In this document: positions 1 to 21,300 of the stretch, piece by piece | Numbering within the stretch: position 1 is the first letter of the stretch | How the letters are laid out: every line of letters starts with the position of its first letter | Assembly (NCBI GenBank): GCA_037893245.1 | Contig: JBAIAA010000533.1 | Coordinates: forward strand, 496,001 to 560,000 | Direction of reading: 5' to 3' | Length of the DNA: 64,000 nucleotides | Origin: Crossaster papposus | Taxonomy: Eukaryota > Echinodermata > Asteroidea > Velatida > Solasteridae | Program-made: the position numbers and the translations under genes | Notes under the pieces: generated by a model | The model's database searches: none | What the model saw: the letters and a program-made list of their open reading frames with translations, nothing else | What the model was told of the DNA's origin: nothing

Positions 1-340
1 CACTTCCTTCTCATTTCTATTTTAGTTGCTCCATTATATCAAACTTTTTTGTACATTCTGGGTTGGTGCTATTGCATTGCATAGTTCAAGAAACTTTAGT
101 TTACTAAATTTTTCATTTGTACAAGCTGTGTCGACTTGTTTGAGATTTTGTCAGCCTGTCCGCATTTGCGAACTGGATTACGTTTGCATGTTGACGTCGG
201 CCTTTTACCAATCAAAATCAGTGTCTTATTTTGAGAAACCACCGAAATTGTCAGGATTTGTCTTTGAGGCAAGTTTTAGTCATCAAAAGTTTGTCTTGTT
301 GGTGTTGACTCTTTTTTGGAGGGCGGAGCTGTGAGGCATT
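1..340. other. Upstream region / possible 5' UTR of RNF19
   Basis: AT-rich sequence ahead of the RNF19 start codon. Base composition rises sharply in G+C at about position 310, where the coding exon begins. No clear TATA box or upstream coding exon is visible. An open frame at 26-334 shows no recognisable protein and is probably chance. The promoter may lie partly outside the window. Confidence 0.35.
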
Positions 341-3300
341 ATGAAGGGCCCCGAGATCGACACCCGCTCAATACAGTCAGGAACGTCGCAGGCGACCACG
401 GACTCGGTCAAACGCAAGAAGCAGAGCAGTTTCATCCCGCGTTTCTTGCAGCGGCAGTCTAAGGCGCGGCGGGGAAGCCCGGATGTCACGCCGAGTCACA
501 GCAGCGGCGGGGTCGCGTGCACGCCCCCGCCTAAGTCGTACCGGCGCGCCGCTTCCGTGCAGGGCAGCACGACGGGCCGGGCGCTGTGCCCGCTCTGCCT
601 GATGGACCGGCCCAAGGACCAGTTCCCGGACCTCATGACGTGCGAGCATCGCTCGTGCCGGGAGTGCCTGCGTCAGTACTTGAAGATCGAGATCACGGAG
701 AGCCGCGTGAACATTGCGTGCCCGGAGTGCGCCGAGCCGCTGCACCCTAACGACATCAAGCTGGTCTTGCAGGATGAGAACTTGATGTGTAAGTACGAGG
801 AGTTCACGCTTCGTCGGCTGCTGATGATGGACTCTGACTGCAGGTGGTGTCCGGCACCAGATTGTGGGTGAGTCAATGATCTTAACCCTAACGCTCCGCA
901 ATCCTCCAATATCCTCATTGCAGTTTTGGAGGATTTTTGAGGATTGAGGATGAATGGTATTTTTAAAAAAATGAGGAGTTTGGAGGATTGAGGCTGAATG
1001 GGGTTTTTAAAAAATGATGATTTTGGAGAATTGACTTTTTTCAATCCTCCAGAATCCTCATTGCAGTTTTGAAGGATTTTTAAGGATTGAGGATGAATGG
1101 TATTTTAAAAAATTAGGATTTTTGAGAATTGAGGCTAATAGGGTTATTAAACAATTAGGATTTTTAAGGGGTTGAGGACGGTTGCTAGCAAAAAGGGCCT
1201 AGGAGGTTAGGGTTTAACGCTGTTTTTGTTTTTGTTATGTAAACTAAGAAAAAAATTTAAAAAATAAAAAGTCCGGTTTTCCGGAGGTCGCAGGTTCAAG
1301 TCCCGCCTTGCTGATTTCTTTGTTCACTTTCATTTATGCAAATTTACCTAGCCAGTTTCCCTTGTGGTTTATTTGTCTAAAATAAAAGGGACAATAGACC
1401 ATTTCTCAGTTTTTATTATCGTTTGAAGCAGAAAAAAGGTCAAAATCTAAAGAAAAGGCTTGACAAATAACCTGAGGAAGTTTTACGTACAGGTACATGT
1501 AGCTCTGTGAATGCTGTGTGTTCTGATAAAACAATGTTTTAGAATTTTGATTTGAATTCAAAATTTGCAGTCACAATTTGCATTGCGGCCACGTCCACAC
1601 GTGCGCTGTGCGTTTGTAAGACACATCTTTGAATTATTGCCAGAACATGCAGAACTCTGAAGGAATAGTTTCACAGGGAGTTTATAGTGTCAACAATATC
1701 TTTACATGTACAATGTAAAATGTACATTACAATAGGTGAGCTTTTAACAGTACGATATTTTGGCTGGTTACTTTTTGATAACTGCAATAATTGAAAGGTA
1801 GGATACACCATTGGTAAATGCTTGAATTATCACGAATGGGTGGATCTGGGAGGTTGTATTTGATAGTAAATATCGTTGAACTGACCTGTCTGAAGTTTTA
1901 CAATCGAGGATGCAGAGAAAAAAAAGCAAGACAAAGGTTGTTCCCGTTGTTTTCGCGTTCGCTAGACGGCGATCGTGATTGAAAAAAAAATCAGACCATT
2001 ACAGGATATCTAATGCAATCATTTTGCTGGATGCTTTCATGTACGTACATGTACCAGGTACATGTACAAAATGTATTTCTTAAAGTGCGGCTGAAGTCCA
2101 GCTCGATTTTGGCAAAATTGTGTTGTTCCTGATTTTAAAGTCTATACTGATTCCACATTCAGTTAAAGTTTACCTTAATGCGCCACGTTTTACCGTGAAA
2201 AAAAGGTCGAAACACTGAACCTTTCGCCAAAAGAAATCCAGCTAAAACAAAACGCTTGTATGACGTCATAATGAATTCATTGACCCCGGCACACGTCATT
2301 GTTTGGAGTTAGCTAGCTCGAGACTTTCACTGATGAACTGTACGTGTGTACACGGGGGTGTGTGGTGGTACATGTACTGTACATGTACACACGTATACTG
2401 TACACACGTGAATGTGTACATGTACACATCGGTAGCGCATTAGCCATTTTGTATTGATCGTCTTGAGAAAAAAATCGTCTATTTGTTCGCTAATTTGTTT
2501 ATCCTAATTGCCTCTAAAGTGGGAATATGCCAATTTCCTGTGTCGTTGGTGGATGCACAAGAAACGCAACGAAAAACCAAGACATATTCTGGCTTTCATT
2601 CCCCCCAAATCCTGCTGTTCGCCGAGAGTGGATCCGGTTTGTCGGTACGACGAGATCGGATTTTAAGATCTCGGACTATTCGAAGATTTGCTCCGCGCAT
2701 TTTCTAGATGAGTGTTTAGACAACACCTTCAAATTAAAAAAAAGTCTGGGCCTTCAAGCCCGATTTAAACTAAAAGATGGGTCGATCCCAACTCTGAAGT
2801 CTCCGACACTGCCTGGATTAACGCCGTTAGTTGCTAGTGCTACTTTGTCAGTTGCCACGTCGTCATCAACGTCGTCTGTTGCTGAAGGTGAATCGTCGTG
2901 CCGTAACAAGACTGAATTGGCCGGGGACAACAGTCCTGCTGGTACCGCTGGCCCGTTTCGCGGCAGGCGATCTGGGGGAGCCTACCACAAACGGGAAAAG
3001 GCCCGGGTAAGTGCTTGTGCATTGAGTCCCACGTTGTCGCGATGTTTTTGTCATAATATTGTTTTAACCACAAAGTATTTAGTTTATGATTTAATAATTC
3101 CCATGTAGGACTAAAACTTTAAAAGTAACTACATTTCTGGAAATTGTGTGAACTAGTATAAGAATGTTACCAAGTAAATTATACTAGCGTGAAGATTATT
3201 AATTTTAGAATCAAGTTACTGAAGTTCGTTATTTATAATTAAATTGGCTAATTTGCAAGATCTTTCGATGTGATCAACCGCTGTTGTAGCGTCTTGTGCA

Positions 3301-6300
3301 TGATCAATTCAACCAAATTGTGATTATCGAGGCGACAAGTGATACTAGGTTGGTATGCTGACTGATGAAATAAAGTCACGTATATTTAATATTTATTGTT
3401 GACAGATACTCCAAGAAGTAGAGCGAGAGTTTTGTACAATTACAGAGCCTCAGCAAGATGCAGATAACGTAGATTTCCCGGTACGTAAATTAAGTTTAGA
3501 TGTTACTTTGCTTCAAGTACAATTGATCAATGTTTCTACTACCTCTCTCCCCACCTCCGGAAACAAATATTAAAATTAAAACGTAATTAAAATTGTCTTT
3601 CTCGTTTTATTGCCGAGATACATTACATCAGGCCAATAATAACCCCTTACCAGTTTGAAACGCTAACTTCAGTTTTTATTTATTTTTCTTTTATGTTTAT
3701 GTGTAAAAAAGTTGAAATTTAATTTAGGAAACACATATAATGATATATAAACAATTTTTGTCAACAAATTAAAGAAATGTGTTTTGTCACAAAAATGAGG
3801 AATGTTTAATTTTCCAGGCCCAAGATGCCTGTGCGGGAAATGAAGTGTCCACTCAGACACGTTCCATGACACTAGCAATCCAACTGGATGTGGAAAAGGT
3901 TAATATATATCCCCAGCGCCCTCCAAAAAAGGTCTTTAAGAGGTCCAGGCACGTCCAAACAACCCCAAGGAAATTTCCTCGACAACGCAAAGGTAAGCTA
4001 ACTACGATCCAACACTTTAATTAAATAATGGCTTTTGAATTTGACATTTTGATAACAAATAACTTTTACTTAATTTTGATTCATTTGTTTTACCTTCAAC
4101 ATTTTTCATTGACATTCAGAGGGATGTAATCAATTAAAATGTATTTCTTACAGTAGCTCAGGCAGTTCATCGCCGCTCAAAAAAAATTCAGTGTGAAATA
4201 CTGAAGGCGACAAAGAAGTCCGTTCCACCAAGCAACAAATATTGTATTGATGAAGTGGAGGAAGTGGACAGTGATGAGCAGAGTTCCAGTAGCGACAGTT
4301 ACAAAGTGTCCAGTGACCCTAGCTCCGACTCAAACTTTGACAAAGAGTAAGGCCATTATTCACTTTTCGGCTGCCTTGTTGTAAACTTGTTTGTTGGATT
4401 GTACTTCTGTGTTGGTTTTGGTTTCGTTTCCCTTTAATTTTACTATTATTTGGGGTGGTGAGGATTATGGGGGAGGGGAGCAGTACGATTCAGAGGGTCG
4501 GGATTTACAGCTTCAAATGACTACATGCCTACCTCCGGTTACACTAATTCTTGTTTTATTAAATGTTTGCAGATCAGAAGACGAACCCAGTGAAGAAGTT
4601 GGGCCATTGGAGGAAAAGAAATACCTCGTTTTTGAAACCCATCTCCTGCAGCTATTCACCAGATGTAGCAAGTGTGCAGGCCCCTCCAGAAAACGACTAC
4701 ATCGACCACATGGTGGAATGATGGTTGAAGTCATACAGACTTGCACCATTAGATCCTGCGGCCACATAAGAAGATGGCGGAGCCAGCCTATGGTGGGGAA
4801 TGTTGGTGCTGGCAACATTTTGATATCGGCCTCCATTCTCATATCTGGCGTCTGCATTAGTAGATTTTTGCACGCACTAACCTCAATAAATGTTGCCATG
4901 ATATCAAGCCGAACATTCTTTACTCATCAGCAAAGGTTGGTTACCAAATAATAATTTTGAATTTTAAATACAATGGACCGTGGTGCTTGATTTACCTGCC
5001 ATGCCATCATATCAGAGCAAGTGCATGTACGTCTAAATGTATAATTAAAAATAAAAATCACAAATAGTGCCAAATGATTTTAAAGTTGATGAGGGTGGCT
5101 TAAAGGTAATGCATTGGTTGTACTCGTGATACTAATACAAAATCTACCCCCAAAACATAAAACTAAACAAAATAAATCAGGGAAAGACATTGATTTTCAA
5201 GCCTTTTTCTTTTTCTTTTACCGTTTAGATTTCTGCAGCCAGCCATCGTCGAGATTTGGCACCGGGAACAGCAATCCATCTTGTCCAGCTTAAAAGCAAC
5301 CAACACAAAAGCATTTCTTGGCATGGACATGCGGGCAGATTCGATGGGTCATTCGGCAAAATATGGAAGTTACAGTGTCGTTGAAATGAATCAAGGCAAA
5401 GTCTTGCATGTAGAGCTTGTTCAGGTGAATATTTTTTCCATTCATAGCAATAATTACGTTTAGTCATTTCTATTTGTTTTCTTTCTGTGTATTGCAGTCA
5501 AATGTAAATCATGATACTGTTGATACATGTACATGCATTATACACTTTACATGTACACAGAAGAGTGACACTGGCAACAAATCAAACCTCATGGAGTTGG
5601 AGGGTCTCGTTAGATCAGTCCGTTGGCTGGACAAACACAAAGTGGACGTCGAAACAATTGTCACGGACCGTCACAGGCAAATCGCAAAGTACATCCGCGA
5701 AAAGCTCTGTCCCCGGGGAATCAAACACTTCTACGACATATGGCATGTTGCCAAAGGTAAGTTGATTATAGACACTGTTGGCTTGCAACTTTCCATTTAG
5801 CTGGCGCGTGTAATTGAACATCACTCTGATAATTTGGACCTTGTCTTATTCGGTGTCTGTTTTTCTTCTGTGTACTACTCAAAGGTCTAAAGAAGAAGCT
5901 CACCGCTGCTGCAAGAAAACCAGGATGCGGGGATATTCAAAACTGGATTCAGGGCATAACGAACAACCTGTATTGGGTTGCTGCATCAACACCCGATGGG
6001 GATGGCGACTTGATGCTAGCCAAGTTCTCCAGTGTTGTGAACCATGTTTTGAATATCCACCAGCATGACAGCATCTTGTTTCCCCAATGTGCACATGGTC
6101 ATCTGGAGGACAGAAAATGGCTCACTCCAGGTATGTTATTATTACATTGCACATGTACAATTGTACATCCATGTAATTGGATTTACGCAGGCTGCAGTTT
6201 GGTGCATAGGTTGCTTAAAAGTTTTGAACAGCATGTATTTAAAAATTGTTAATATAATCATGTATATGAACTGCTTTGACAGGCTCGCAACCAGCAGAGA

Positions 6301-9300
6301 AGCTTCAGGATATTCTGAATGCGACTTATGTACGCAAGGATGTGAAGAAGCTCTCTCCATCAATGCAGACATCGAGTGTGGAGGCATTTCATGCCCTCAT
6401 CATCCAATATGCCCCGAAGATGCTAGCATTTTCATTTGAAGGCATGTGGTGCCGGTAAGGGAAATGAACCATGAACATATAAATTTTATTTCAAGGTGAT
6501 TGACTGCAAATCCATTGGTTTGGGTGTACGATGTTTAACCACATTTTAACATCATTAATTTTCATGTTCCTTAAAACCACATTTTAGAATCTACCTGGCT
6601 GCCCTCCATTTCAATGAGAACTCTGGGAGGCAACAGGCACTGGATAGACAGGGTAATCCTGCCTTCACCATTAGTTTTCCCAGGGCCAAACAGACCACAG
6701 GTGGATACAGTGTAAGGAAGGTGCCAGTGCAAACTACTTACAGTAAGTACATGTGTCCGATGAAAATAAATACTTGAGAAATTAAAAAGTTACTGTTCGT
6801 GTATCTTAGCTTGCGATGTAACGACATTGATTGACATGCATGTAACATCTTGGAACATTGATCAAGTACATAATTAATCTAAAATGCTACAAATACGTCC
6901 TCTCTATTCCCAATTAGAATTCAGTCACCGTATACTCTCCAATGTACTGGAGTTATGCAGTGGGAAAAGGAAGGATACAAGGAGCCAGTACCGGGAACTT
7001 ACAAGTAACCCGGGCTTTGTCTCCTCGAAATTTGAACGCCCCAAGAAAGAGGACGCTGTCGGGAAATTTGTTTCTCGATTCGCCAGAATCCAGCCTGTGG
7101 GGCGGCCAGAGGGATGTTCAGAGGTAACCGTACCGGAGCGAGTAATCTTTGGCAAAAAAAAGAAAAAGAAGCAAAAGAAGAAGCAAAAGAAGAGCAAAGA
7201 TGATGAACGCAAAAAAAGGAAGCCTGATGACGATGATCAGCCTGGACCTTCATCATCTAAACATGGAAAAAAAACTCATTGAAGCATAATTTTGGTTAGA
7301 TGAATTGTCCTCTTTAATTCAACAATTTAGCATTCGAAATCTACACTTTGAAATACAATGTTTAGTAAATGTATTTCTTCAGTTTGGTATGGCTTAAAAC
7401 AAAAATCTTTTGTTGTGGTGATAAATAACAAAATCAAGTTGATTGCTTGTAAGGATTAGAAATTAACTATACATGTAGTATTTAGAATTATGTCAGACAA
7501 TTTTCGATCAAAATATGGTGGTCCCCAAAACAAAACTACATGTAAAGATATTGAACATTCTGGGTAACGTTATTTGTGCAGACATTAGGACTAGGAGGTA
7601 TCGTTATAATTGTGGAACCATTCAAACGAAATAGGTACATGTAATGTGTACAAGTAATGACATGACAGTAATTTAAGTACGTAAATAAGACCAAATCATA
7701 TTGTAAGTTGATTATCAGAATGTTCTTATCAATTGCAATGTCCGACCTTAGCAATTAATGCAGTGGCTATCGTTACGGCAGTTGACAATCTGATCCCCAA
7801 ACATACTCCGCCTGACATTGACAATAATAATTGGATATCGCTCTTGGAACCAGACTGATTGACGGTAAAGTTCCAAGAGTGAAAAGCCTCGATTATTGTG
7901 ATTATCAACAATTAGCCTACAGTGCAGTGTAATTTAAGTGTACTTTAGGACCAATATGTGGCAAGTCAATTTTGTATTTCTTTTGTTTTACAAGTTACAT
8001 AGCTACTCATCTAAATCCGGATATCTGAATCCTTTGTAGCTTCCTTCAGGGTCGGGGTAGGTAGTCCTGGTCTTGTTAATAATACAGGATGGCAAACGTA
8101 CCCGGTTGTGTCGGCCGAGAAATCCCCAACACCACCTGACAACCTGACGATACGACACGTGCCGGTATTTGCTAGATACAATTAAAGAAAAGAAAGAAGA
8201 GAAATGTGAATAAAAGGTTATATGTGCTCACAAAGCATTCCCATTTTTGTATTGAACATCAACACAAAAGACATACAGTAGCATGAATTATGTCAGGTGC
8301 ATGCTAATCAACCAGTAAAGAAATGGAAAAATATCACTTAAATGAATTAATAATTAGTTTATCTGACATGTTCAGGTACATGTATTTCTTTTGGACCGTT
8401 GGACGGTTTTTAAAGATGTACGGTACTTCAAATATTAAAAGTGCATAAACCAACCCTAACTGAAATTAGAATTGTAAGTTTTAATCATTACATGTACCTT
8501 GCTCTGTCTCCTTCTACAGCCCGTGCTCCATACTGCTGCTTAAAATGAAAATAGGCAGTTTCTAAGGTTCCTGGATTTAGGCAGGTTGCCTCATACCAGG
8601 GATGATCTGTGAAACACTGCAATGTTTCTGGATCCATGTCAGTATGGTTGATTTTTTCTTTAAACACATCCATTTCGCGGCAACACTTGCAGTTTTCCAC
8701 AGTGTCCATTACAATACATTTTCCGCATGAACACCTGGAGGAAAGCAGAAAGAATTGTTTAGGTAAAATTCACAATGGTATTTTGTTTTCGAACTTTATA
8801 AACATCCACCCCCCAAAAAAACAATTTAAAAAAAAAATAAAAAAAAATCAGTTTGGCATTGGGACAGTTACTTCATAATTTAACAAGTTAACTGGGTTAC
8901 AATTTTTTAACGACTCCCTTCCTCAGATCATCAACGAACCACTGGACTCAGTGGGACAACTTGACCAGTTGGACAACTCGACCGCGCACGGCGATGCGCC
9001 GCGCTGTGTACCGTTTTACGTGATCTGAACATTTTAGTAATTTCCCCATGTTCACTAGCAATGTACATGTACAATTATTGTCACTGATTGCTCAAGCATA
9101 TTTATTCGTTTCTACAAAATCTGAGCATTTATAAACATTACCAGTCGGTATTTTCGAGACGATTTTCCCCCACTGGCTCTGCTGCTTCGGCATGGTCGGC
9201 CTCGTCATCTTCGGCGCTCTCTCCCCTACTTTCGTCAGGTCTAGCTGCCAATGGCTCAAACCGGTAGGGTTCAGCACCCCGGACAATGATTTCCTCTTCA

Positions 9301-12300
9301 GAGGCCTCAACGTTAATATCATTGTCTGACGACGACGACGTACCACTTTCGCACGAAAAACGATCAGAATCAACGCTGTAAGTCTGCCAAGAATCGTCGC
9401 TGTCGCACTCCGCCATGTCGTTTTCGCGTGTGTACAAAGTACATGTACAATGTACACGCAATCTGACAATGTACCGCGCGTGTAGCGTTAACGCGGTACA
9501 GACACTAGACTAGTCGGTGAATACAACTCCAAACAATGACGTCACACAAAAAACAGTGCGGGGCCGCTGTGACCTTTGTTTTTCAGTTTCGAGACCAAAG
9601 CGCTTCAGCGAAAAAGACACATTTTCCAGTTTTGGGGGGTTTGATTTTTTTTTCAAGTGTTTAATTTGTAATGAGTATATCTAAACACATATTAAACAGT
9701 GAAAAATTAAGATTGATCGGCCACACTTCAGCCGCACTTTAATAATTTAGTAGTAAAAATATGCACAATGTATAGTACATGTACACTGGACCAAACAGCA
9801 CTGAATGACAACCATACAACATACAGTATGTACATCCGTCTTATTGTATTGTACTGTACAGTCTACATATTTGTTATTAATAAACTATGTCAGATGGGTT
9901 CTGCATGTAGACATGAGTCATTCAACAAAAATGTTTTGGGTACAGGTATACACAGGCCAAGCCCTATACCATATAGAGTAGGTGTAAATAAAATGGCCAA
10001 TCCTTTCTGAGTTTTTCAGTTTGTTGTTTCTGTTTCCATGGATTTTGTACATGGTCGTGATCATCATACACAAAACATACCGGTAGCTCATTTTATGTTT
10101 ATACTGCAATGTCATGTACTGGTACATACATGTACATACTGTACGTGTACAGTACATGTACTTGTACTGTACATGTACATGTACACACGTTGTGTACATG
10201 TATTGGTACCGGTAAATGTACAAAGTACCGGTACATGTTGTACATACAAACTCATATTACGTGTACATGTACATGTATGCATACTGTACATTTTTGTACA
10301 TACATGTACTGTATTGGGGTCCAATAGGAAATATTGTCTTTTTTTTGTTTTTTAAATTTATCTAAATAGAAAATGTAATAGACACAAACCACAAGGGAAA
10401 CTGGCTAGGTAAATTTGCATCAATTTCAAAGTGAATAAAGAAATTGGCAAGGTGGGACTTGAACCTGTGACCTCTCGAATACCAGACCAGCGCTCTACCA
10501 ACTAAACTATCAACTAAACTATCAACTAAACTATCTTGCCCTATTTTGGCGGTCTCCAAAATTGTCAGTATCTTTGCTGGATGGTGCTAGTCAGAAGTAA
10601 ATAAACAACCGAATGTCGTGTGGCCAGGGATCACGCCCGATTTTAAGATGCAACCTGGGGCCACTTTCACAAAGCTGCTAAGCACAAAAATTTGCTTAGC
10701 ACAAGAAGGTCTATTAAAAAAACTCATTAAAAACAAGTTATCAGCCAAAATTCTACGTGTTTTTTATGCTAAGCAAAAAACCAGCTGATTATCAATCAAA
10801 AACAATAAAGATCACGTGAAAATTTGGTCTATAACCTTGTTTTTACCAAGAAAAATATTTCATGCTAAGCAAATTTTTGTGCTTAGCAGCTCCGTGAAAT
10901 TGGCCCCAGGGAAGCGTTGTTGCATGTACTTATAATGTTTGATTGATACTTGGTACATGTACTGTATGCATAGAAATGGCACAAAGCAACTAAATCTACC
11001 ACAATAACCATCTCTGCCCTCACAGGTAACCATTTACCCCTGGGTGGAGAGAAGCAATAAGGGGCAAAAAGTGCCTTGCCCAAGGGCACACGCACTGTAG
11101 TCCCAGGCCAGATTCAAACCCACAACCTGGATCTTTACTGTACAGGTTACAAATTCATTGCTCCAGACCACGTTACACTTACCCGCATTGTTTCAACGGA
11201 AATGTCAACTGGTTGGATCGTGTTGGATTCAGCTAGATTAGGGTTAATTTATTAATTTTGTTTGGGATGATTTCTTAACACAGTTTTGCGGTGATCGCGG
11301 CCGGGTGCGCCAACTGCCCCCAGCTCGCCTGCCTACGGCAAGGCTGCAGCACGTTCTTCTGCTACCACTGCAAGCAGGTCTGGCACCCCGACCAGACCTG
11401 TGATGCGGCAAGGCAACAGCGGCAGGGGCTCCTGAGGAAGACGTCACGGGCTTACAGCCAGGGCTCTGCATCATGTGAGTTAAAAAGTTCTCTGTTAAAC
11501 AAATTCAGGATCAAGGGACGTGACAAAAAGCCGTATAATTCTGTTTGCAACACATTGGTCAAGCCTGTTCAGCATAGTTTGTTTATTTCATATTTTTTCT
11601 TATTCTCAGATGGTTAAAATTTGTGAGTGGGGTCCGGGGAGTCTGCATTATTCAGATACACATTATAACAAACGACTGGAAAATAGGAAAAGCTAAAACA
11701 TTTTCTTCCCTTTTTGTGATATAAGTGGTCGCACCGAAGGCCTGCATGTACTGTACACGTGGGCAAAGTTGTCTCAGAAATCTGAGACAACTCCTGTATC
11801 TGGTCAGAGAGAGCGTGTATGCAAAGATTCCACGTACTACGCCGCTGCGCGTTTAGCGCATCCTCTTGTGTAAAGTTGTCTAATAAGGAACGTGGCGAAC
11901 TCACAAACGACGATAGGTCAATACCGGACTTATTAACCTCTGCCTCTATCAGGCTTCTTCAGGCGTATGTCCTTAGACCCTCAGCTCCGTTGAGGCAAGC
12001 CAGTCCAACGTGTCATTGTCCAGGTCAATCGTGGTGTTTGTTGGCAATGTGGACGGCCAAGGTGTACCCAGGGACTTCCAGGAAGTTCTTGTTTTTCATG
12101 CGGGTCTCCTGCAGTGGGATTACAGTCACATTGTTTCTAATGACAATCTTCAAACTTGAGCTGAAGTAGCGCTAGCGCTGCGATCTGTAGACGGTGTAAA
12201 GACATTGGTTTCGCTTAGAGATCATGCAACCTTGGAAGTCTGTTCGCTACTCGTAGGGGAGGCCACAGAGAGGCTGTCTTCATCTTCTCGTATCACTATC

Positions 12301-18300: not shown

Positions 18301-21300
18301 TCCAGCATTACCGGTAGTTTAGGCCTATGACCTGGATCCTGCATTATCCTCCAGGGGCAAAAACCCCAAACACCCTCAATCCTACAAAATCCTCCGATTC
18401 TCTTTACTCTGGTAATCTTGCTACAGTAATCTCTTTAGGTTATTTCCTCTAATTGTACATTTTCTTTTATGATTCTGTTACCATGGTCACTGAGCTGTTT
18501 ACATGGTTACTAGTCTCATGTTTCAATATAATTGAGCATACATGTACATGTACATCATACTGTACAGTATGTACTGGTACACGTACATGTAGTTGCATCA
18601 CTGTGGAGACATGGCTCTGTTCTCGTGTACAAAAAGCTTAGAAAGTCAAGCACGTTTTTCAAAATGCTCCCATTTTAACCCCAATTATTTTCATGGGTTG
18701 AAATTTCGACCCAATATACCCTATATTATACCCTAACCCAAACACTAACCCTAACCCACATTCTAACCCTAGTTTTTGAGTAATTTAAGTACAATCCAAA
18801 AATCTAATTCGTGAAATTCCTAATGGAGACCTATTCATCTATAGAAATTACCCTTTCGAGACCTTTTCACTCCCATTGTCCGCATTGTGTTCACGTCTCC
18901 AGAGGGTTCGTATTTTGCACCATGTACACAGTTCATATTAAAACCATGAGCAGTTTAAAGTAACAAATAACCTCAAACCTCAAAAATTTGAATAAATACC
19001 CAAGTAACCTCAATCCTGCGCAATCATCCAGCATTACCGGTAGTTTAGGACCTATATTATGACCTACATGTAGATCCTGCATTATCATTATCTCAATCCT
19101 ACAAAATCCTACGATTCTCCTTACTCTGGTAATCTTGCTACTAGATGTAATCTTGCTACTAGATGTAATCTCTTTAGGTTATTTCCTCTAATTGTACATT
19201 TTCTTTTATGATTCTGTTACCATGGTCACTCAGCTGTTTCCATGGTTACTAGTCTCATGTTTCAATATAATTGAGCATACAATGTACATGTACGTACATC
19301 ATACATGTATACTGTACATCATACATGTATGTACTGGTAGTACAAGTACACACAATCCTCACATTTGTATCTTTGTGGAGACATCGTTTTGTTCTCATCG
19401 ACATCGTTATGTTGAGGGGTTTTAGTTGAGCGGCAGAAATAATTTGGGTTTTTACTATGGTATAAACAAATTAACAATTCAAAGGTGGGGGTTATTCCCC
19501 ATTATGTCATGGCAGGTTACATATTATGCACACTCTCATATCACGCACTTTCAGACTTTACATTGTGAACGGCCATAGTCTTCTACATAATGTACGCACG
19601 TACGGTACATGTAAGTGCGGCGGAAGTGGGGGGAAAATTCACGTCACCGTTCCGGAGAATCACGTCCCAAATAATCCCCATGTGACATCTCCGCCACATC
19701 TGCCGGTTAAATAAAGATTGTTTATTCAACTTGCCTCCGCAAACGTTTGCCGCGGATTTGCGGCTTGCAGATTCGTAGTAGGAGGGGGGAGGGGGGACAC
19801 AGACTTTGTAAGAGAGAATTTATAGAACGGAGAAGTCCTCTGTGTATTAACCGAAAGGGCGGGAAAGTGATGAAATGATTGGAAATGATGAAATGGCAAG
19901 AAAATGTCAAAAACCAAAACGGGCGTAGCGCGGTTTGCGTTAAGCGACGGCTTTGTGTCGTGCAATCTCTTTGTGTCGCGATCTCTCGTGTTCGTAGTGC
20001 GTAGGCCCTCGGACTTATTAACACATTGTGAATACTCTATGCCCAGGGTGTCGGATTGCGCAGAATATGTAAAGGCTGTGTATCAAATTGTTTTTTTTGT
20101 TCAGCCGTTGCATTTTTACTGACTAAAAGAAGAGCGATCTAAAAAAAAAAAATTTGTTCACGGCTCCAAGATAAAAAAAACAGAGCCAGCATTATAGAAT
20201 TGTACTGAAGGAAAAGAATTTGTATACATTGTTAAAATGCCAGGTTTATTTTCGTCATTAATTGCCGTTTTTGTACAGGTTGGATTTCTGTTGGCTAATT
20301 TTAGTCGGTTTTAAAAGTCAAAAATGCTTCGACAGTCTATTTGTTTGGTTGAATATTCATTTAAAAGTAGCTAAAATTGTGGCGATTAGCCCTGCATAAT
20401 TCTCTGACCCTAACAATTCCCATCCAGTCAAACCTTGAAGGTACATGTAGGATAAACCATTTTATCGTATTATGAAATGCCTTTATACTTGATTAAGTGA
20501 ATAAAAGTTTCAAGCATTCTGCAAAATCTGCTATTAAAGTACCCAAATTTGCTTAGCACAAAGAAGTCGTGCTCAGTAAAAACAGGTTACCGGCCAAAAC
20601 TACATGTATGTGCTTTTCATGCTAAGCAAAAAACAAATGAATACCAATCACAAACATTATATAGATCGGCTGAAAAAAATAGGTTGTAACCCTGTTTTTG
20701 CCAAGCAGGAATTTTCATGCTAAGCATTTTATTTATTTTTTTCAAAAACTGCCCCTAATTTACCAAATTTAGTTAACAGTATACATTTTGTTTGCAGTCG
20801 GTTGAGACTTCCATCACTGACTGTAACATTAATTCACTTTGATTTTTCTGTTTGGCTTTCACCACAGGTTCATGGAAAGTACTCAAACACGTCACGCCAT
20901 CGTCGCAACCTGGCCATAGCTGGTAGCGTCACCATGTCGGTTCTCGTGTCTCCCGTAATAGCAGCACTTACAGTCGGTGAGTCTGGTGTAATCTTTAAAA
21001 AAAAAAAGGAACTGTTTTCTCCTAATCATTCTTTTGTTGTTCCAATGGACTCTGTACATGCTTTTCCTTTTGTGTTTCTCCCACCAGCCACGATGTGCAT
21101 CATGCTGTATATATGTTGCCCTACATATGTTTTTTTCTTGTACACAGCCATTATGTCTCTTAAGAAGATATTAGGCCCTCTTAACTTATTTGATTTCTCC
21201 AATATGTGAGAGGTTCTGGCAAAATGAGACTTAACTGGGGCCGATTTCATAGAGCTGCTTAAGCACAAAATGTTGCTTAAAGGTAGGATACACCATTGGT

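Follow-up and report, generated by a model that had tools for sequence, protein, structure and literature searches.

A 64,000-nucleotide stretch of the genome of the echinoderm Crossaster papposus (GenBank assembly GCA_037893245.1, contig JBAIAA010000533.1, positions 496,001 to 560,000; here called the window) carries a 7,655-bp transposon at 2084-9738, which has perfect 14-bp inverted ends and is flanked by TTAA on both sides. Inside it lie two convergent genes, one for a transposase and one for a protein that resembles the ballast domain of the P2X7 receptor. Kojima and Bao (2022; PMC9587614) report that Kolobok transposons of the Kol0 lineage encode a second protein with the ballast fold, KolX, and that P2X7 arose by fusion with it. 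The pairing of transposase and KolX is therefore already in print, and our finding is a confirmation with further detail in an echinoderm host. We add pairing counts, in-step divergence of the two proteins, conservation of the zinc cysteines and of some of the guanine-contact residues, and multi-copy KolX elements without a detected catalytic domain. We consider it likely that the window holds a young two-gene Kolobok of the Kol0 type whose KolX protein aids transposition in trans, and that KolX is neither a passenger nor an enclosed host gene.

Structure of the element

The end sequence TTAAAGTGCGGCTGAAGT occurs at 2080-2097 on the plus strand and at 9725-9742 on the minus strand with zero mismatches; at up to 3 mismatches, 0.06 chance matches to this 18-base end are expected in the window. 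It comprises the TTAA duplication and a perfect terminal inverted repeat of 14 bp, just as an earlier note on this DNA had described. The element begins with AG and ends with CT, which fits the 5'-RR...YY-3' termini of Kolobok, and it has the 4-bp TTAA duplication of that superfamily, to which the exceptions among the copies are those on contigs C341 and C547. About 200 bp inward of each end sits a perfect 18-bp inverted repeat, a candidate binding site for the transposase. The features are as follows.

2080..2083: left TTAA target-site duplication (single TTAA at 4/4 fetched related empty sites)
2084..2097, plus strand: left terminal inverted repeat, AGTGCGGCTGAAGT
2293..2310, plus strand: subterminal 18-bp inverted repeat, left copy, ACGTCATTGTTTGGAGTT (100% complementary to 9525-9542)
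2527..3006, plus strand: transposase exon 1, THAP domain (spliced frame, Pfam)
3406..3480, plus strand: transposase exon 2
3818..3992, plus strand: transposase exon 3
4154..4346, plus strand: transposase exon 4
4573..4935, plus strand: transposase exon 5
5229..5424, plus strand: transposase exon 6, D462/D466 (spliced frame, alignment)
5561..5756, plus strand: transposase exon 7, D530 and DxxH 553-556 (spliced frame, alignment)
5885..6130, plus strand: transposase exon 8, C628/H630 of the zinc finger (spliced frame, alignment)
6283..6454, plus strand: transposase exon 9, E675 (spliced frame, alignment)
6588..6742, plus strand: transposase exon 10
6918..7282, plus strand: transposase exon 11, including the stop
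8003..8171, minus strand: KolX exon 3 with the stop (equivalents of rat P2X7 R546/H547/Y550/C572/R578)
8498..8734, minus strand: KolX exon 2 (six zinc cysteines)
9142..9416, minus strand: KolX exon 1 (acidic N-terminus, EPYRFEP stretch)
9525..9542, minus strand: subterminal 18-bp inverted repeat, right copy
9725..9738, minus strand: right terminal inverted repeat
9739..9742: right TTAA target-site duplication

The transposase gene runs on the plus strand from 2527 to 7282 in 11 exons (2,616 nt, 871 amino acids) with no internal stop and GT-AG introns throughout, the splicing being predicted from the sequence alone. Pfam finds a THAP domain (1.2e-10), as in the Kol0 lineage, and a Mutator-like transposase domain (PF20700; 4.4e-8), in line with the intact THAP/DDE transposase of 871 codons that had been read from the window. 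Koloboks usually bear THAP, according to passages of PMC6004289. The catalytic landmarks D462, D530, D553xxH556 and E675 align with those of five other families in the same genome, with D466 also invariant; the H of DxxH is missing in one aligned family, that of C123. This alignment with same-genome relatives gives the Kolobok pattern, a DDE triad with C/DxxH and a zinc finger before E. A profile of the six DDE domains matched no solved structure convincingly (best E 0.64).

Convergent to the transposase, on the minus strand, lies the KolX gene, with three exons, likewise predicted from the sequence, and an open frame of 226 amino acids without internal stop. The earlier note had called it an intact ballast-like gene, and the Pfam result bears this out: P2RX7_C (8.1e-16) is the sole match at E<=0.1. 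The Pfam result includes no channel domain of the P2X receptor type. Four solved structures match KolX, all of them P2X7 receptors (best 4.6e-8).

We compared KolX across families of the genome, taking the roles of the zinc and guanine-contact residues of rat P2X7 from the relevant passages of Rump et al. (2020; PMC7016195). The zinc cysteines 477/479/482/498/499/506 are conserved in 7/7 families that have the exon, the pattern of cysteines and ballast similarity that marks the second gene of Kol0 elements. The seventh, C572, is present in 7/8 families; the exception is C599a, whose two close copies retain it. Among the guanine-contact positions, R546 is found in 8/8 families, and H547 and R578 each in 7/8. 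This H547 equivalent differs from a statement in PMC7016195, in the part used here, that H547 is not found in invertebrates. The acidic N-terminus, with an 11-residue stretch, recurs in the families of the window, C599a, C599b and C632 and is altered in that of C658; the stretch falls outside the region that matches P2X7.

The second gene moves with the element

A search of the 1.02-Gb genome allowing up to 1 mismatch found the end sequence 23 times and its reversed control 0 times. End-to-end alignment of four other copies with the window element gives 98.2-99.7% identity, and more worn copies exist, such as those on C890 (aligned in pieces, 91-96%) and C762 (92%). The flanks of the four aligned copies differ from those of the window element and from one another. 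TTAA lies on both sides in two of the four; the C341 copy has TGAA on one side, and in the C547 copy the right TTAA is preceded by two additional bases. A single insertion, present as haplotypes or duplicated, may account for the copies on C341, C653 and C159, whose right flanks are shared. All three KolX exons could be mapped full length in 10 copies, that of the window among them; the gene is open in 8 of these and is disrupted by stops or a frameshift in C890 and C653. The transposase is open in 5 of the 8 copies with all eleven exons so mapped.

When the two flanks of the window element were joined, they matched copies of a dispersed repeat across one TTAA in 4/4 fetched loci, at 71-77% identity. 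In a search for a precise allelic empty site, the window itself was the only full match to both flanks. The related empty sites, with their single TTAA, show that the second gene arrived with the element. The search of the same genome that the earlier note had proposed found matches to both genes in 7/7 two-ended copies of this family. Hence, neither of the outcomes that the note had held fatal to its proposal, copies devoid of the ballast gene or a host gene enclosed by the element, was observed.

Two further loci, L052 and L053 (on C711 and C245), share 245 bp of the left end of the family and have near-identical surroundings; the rest of the element was not found there. They represent a derivative, probably present as a haplotype pair or a duplication.

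KolX genes accompany Kolobok transposases across the genome

We then asked how often ballast-domain genes lie beside Kolobok transposases elsewhere in the genome. Our searches score only the best candidates, so that a missing match is not an absence and all counts are among the matches listed. The 112 ballast-domain matches gave 108 places once four second-exon matches of listed genes were dropped; these places are copies and not independent events, and some have common flanks. Kol0-type DDE matches, 97 in number, fell into 88 loci, some further exons of those loci being left out. Because each of the three query transposases belongs to an element with KolX, the sample may contain too few KolX-free relatives.

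Within 12 kb of a Kol0-type DDE match lie 43 of the 108 ballast places, 42 of them convergent with it, where 0.22 would be expected; this count is independent of the choice of THAP matches. Ten of the 43 belong to the family of the window and 33 lie outside it. The pairing recurs in many families. Seen from the DDE side, in a count that took in five additional KolX places, 47 of the 88 loci have a ballast match within 12 kb, 46 convergent. THAP exons behave alike: when 26 near-identical ones (on C183, C375, C453, C611, C733, C1278 and C418) were dropped from the 150 found, the remaining 124 gave 19 pairs within 12 kb, all 19 convergent (0.31 expected). With DDE and THAP matches combined, 51 of the 108 places are paired within 12 kb, 50 convergently. 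This count used 21 THAP matches, 19 of them already paired in the THAP-only count, and its expectation, 0.60, is 0.0056 per place x 108 places, from all 150 THAP matches. Among the 57 places that remain, 14 are near Kolobok ends, either those of the window's family or those of one other.

As a control, we used 114 matches to intronless PF20700 transposases, represented in the pairing count by 29 picked by hand. None is near a listed KolX, the nearest being 164 kb away, and 3/24 contigs hold both kinds of match. All 12 listed P2X_receptor matches lie on contig C373, where no ballast place is listed; among the listed matches, therefore, the ballast domain accompanies transposons rather than channels. 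More than 100 ballast-domain places in this genome contrast with the view, given in passages of Rump et al. (PMC7016195), that ballast domains have not expanded into large families. That paper records the domain throughout the animals, with sea urchin among them; no mention of transposons or transposition was found in the part of its text consulted.

KolX and transposase diverge in step

Over six families, pairwise distances range from 0.34 to 0.69 for the DDE domain and from 0.27 to 0.66 for KolX. The two sets correlate at r = 0.926, a value matched by 3/720 permutations; the C599 element at 2.1 Mb, which has no DDE match, was excluded. Comparisons of KolX between families give a saturated dS and a dN of 0.16-0.58. 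For close copies, KolX dN/dS is 0.13-0.26, a ratio resting on 3 to 8 changes per pair.

KolX elements without a detected catalytic domain

The locus L065 carries, at 295-3495, a 3.2-kb element from a different family, with perfect 18-bp ends and TTAA on both sides. This element holds three open KolX exons (splice sites unchecked), and its transposase is reduced to the THAP exon; it is a non-autonomous Kolobok and, by its ends, multi-copy. These ends occur 30 times in the genome (control 0) and delimit 9 two-ended elements, of which 7 have a listed KolX match and 0 a listed DDE match. The two without listed KolX are on C42 and, at 0.6 kb, on C1390. On C192, KolX, a DDE match and one end of the L065 family lie together. 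The fetched C599 element likewise combines KolX with THAP and a C-terminal piece and lacks a DDE match. Such elements may be plain deletion derivatives or, by analogy with P-element KP, regulators.

For the C599, C191, C123, C658, C1277 and C531 families, the fetched stretches yielded no convincing TTAA-bounded inverted repeat. Two AT-rich pairs found there were discarded as chance.

What might KolX do?

The working of the element would follow from its superfamily and from the domains and TTAA duplications observed: the THAP domain would bind the element ends, and the DDE domain would cut and join at TTAA. KolX, a free protein of the ballast fold, would have been retained because it helps transposition, its zinc-held module, perhaps still holding a guanine nucleotide, acting in trans with the transposase. 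Might KolX instead be a host gene, surrounded by the insertion or flanked by two ends by chance? It does have introns and a strand and start of its own. However, the same unit stands at sites with different flanks, and the related empty sites and the recurrence across families rule this out for the window's family; we give it practically no credence.

The earlier note had also left the choice between an accessory factor and a passenger, a gene caught between the ends and carried along without a role. Several observations weigh against an accessory role. Among Kol0-type DDE loci, 41 of 88 have no listed KolX match within 12 kb (these include single exons, and 15 of the 41 lie in or beside a tandem array on C721), and 43 of the 108 ballast places are still unplaced. 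R574 and K583, guanine-contact residues of rat P2X7, are absent from KolX in 8/8 families. Inside the young family, purifying selection on KolX is not supported against neighboring noncoding DNA (variable sites 20/681 versus 66/1769, p = 0.39), and the first 90 KolX codons differ from those of the C890 copy by 0 synonymous and 3 amino-acid changes. This undetected constraint speaks for a passenger, as do the Kolobok-like PF20700 transposases of the same genome without listed KolX nearby. Yet a passenger would hardly keep its convergent place, or diverge in step with the transposase, across families that differ by up to 69% in their DDE-domain residues, and between families the saturated dS of KolX stands against a modest dN. 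Conserved linkage and co-divergence favor the accessory half of the note's alternative, and we regard a mere passenger as unlikely.

KolX could also regulate or restrain transposition, or counter host silencing, the elements with KolX and THAP but no DDE acting like KP repressors. The L065 family, with KolX in most of its two-ended elements and the THAP exon as all that is left of the fetched transposase, is consistent with this. Small P derivatives encode repressors, among them the 207-amino-acid KP, and a THAP-bearing truncated transposase also represses, according to passages of PMC7776569. However, internal deletion derivatives would retain whatever the deletion spared, and we find a regulatory role improbable. 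Bolder than an accessory role in general is the proposal that KolX is a guanine-nucleotide-binding cofactor subunit acting in trans with the THAP/DDE transposase and so supplying the cofactor which, in the P element, the transposase itself binds. This is speculative, and we would not expect it to hold. Such a role for KolX was not found in our searches of an open-access library, judged partly from titles and abstracts.

That KolX aids transposition in trans remains the reading we prefer. According to PMC9859053, it is not known what the zinc and GTP/GDP sites in the P2X7 ballast do; if the cofactor proposal were true, these sites would be a relic of a transposition machine. If the ballast module began in a transposon, its original job could be tested in a simple transposition system, for which this genome offers several diverged transposase-KolX pairs. 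The earlier note had further suggested that carriage by a transposon explains why channel-free ballast copies are numerous, and how a P2X4-like receptor could have gained the domain. Our data support both ideas, which are already stated in passages of PMC9587614; there, Nanor is called a likely domesticated KolX copy.

Other observations

In the window, 19610-19627 differs from the 18-base end by 3 mismatches (TGTAAGTGCGGCGGAAGT), where 0.06 such matches are expected. Scanning the window for Rfam families and tRNAs gave no matches. In the C721 array (224999-313547), a single Kol0-type DDE exon is matched 16 times, mostly at intervals of 5.2 kb; no listed KolX match lies within the array, and one lies just outside at 222983. 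An intronless Mutator/Kolobok-like transposase of 620-701 amino acids forms head-to-tail arrays on C530, C82, C616, C887, C293 and other contigs, at spacings of about 3.9-6.4 kb (30 matches on C530, 29 on C82), which recall published KolobokP multimers. C375 has 13 near-identical THAP exons, about 110-260 kb apart along the contig.

On the 16.3-kb C1841 lies a COX1, the initial 699 bases of which translate well if AAA=Asn, AGA=Ser, ATA=Ile and TGA=Trp. Judged by the residues expected at conserved COX1 positions, this is the mitochondrial code of the echinoderm/flatworm type. COX1 matches without stops in the standard reading occur on C8, a contig of >5 Mb that is perhaps a bacterial chromosome in the assembly.

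Comparison with known systems

The Crossaster transposase resembles those of the P element and THAP9 in its N-terminal THAP domain and DDE catalysis. P elements are not known to be TTAA-specific. Unlike P transposase, which has its own GTP-binding insertion domain, the Crossaster protein has no such Pfam match even at E<=10, in a search whose HMMER filters hide weak matches. P-element transposase requires GTP, bound in an inserted domain that passages of PMC7776569 call the only one known.

KolobokP and other KolX-free Kolobok lineages belong to the same superfamily, and KolobokP also occurs in echinoderms; they differ in having other accessory proteins (a homing nuclease and others) and, for KolobokP, long terminal direct repeats, as passages of PMC9587614 describe. 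KolX is like the rat P2X7 ballast (PDB 6u9v) at the positions of the zinc cysteines, R546, H547, Y550 and R578. It is unlike rat P2X7 in lacking the channel domain, R574 and K583, and in having the extra acidic N-terminus with its 11-residue stretch.

The element differs in host, an echinoderm, from the Kol0 elements of vertebrates, annelids, cnidarians and sponges named in passages of PMC9587614, its placement being by structural features. In those features it is like Kolobok-1_XT and its relatives: TTAA, 5'-RR ends (AG), a THAP domain, a DDE domain with DxxH and a zinc finger between the second D and E, and a KolX protein with similarity to the ballast. We conclude that the element confirms the published Kolobok-KolX link in another host group and is not a new link.

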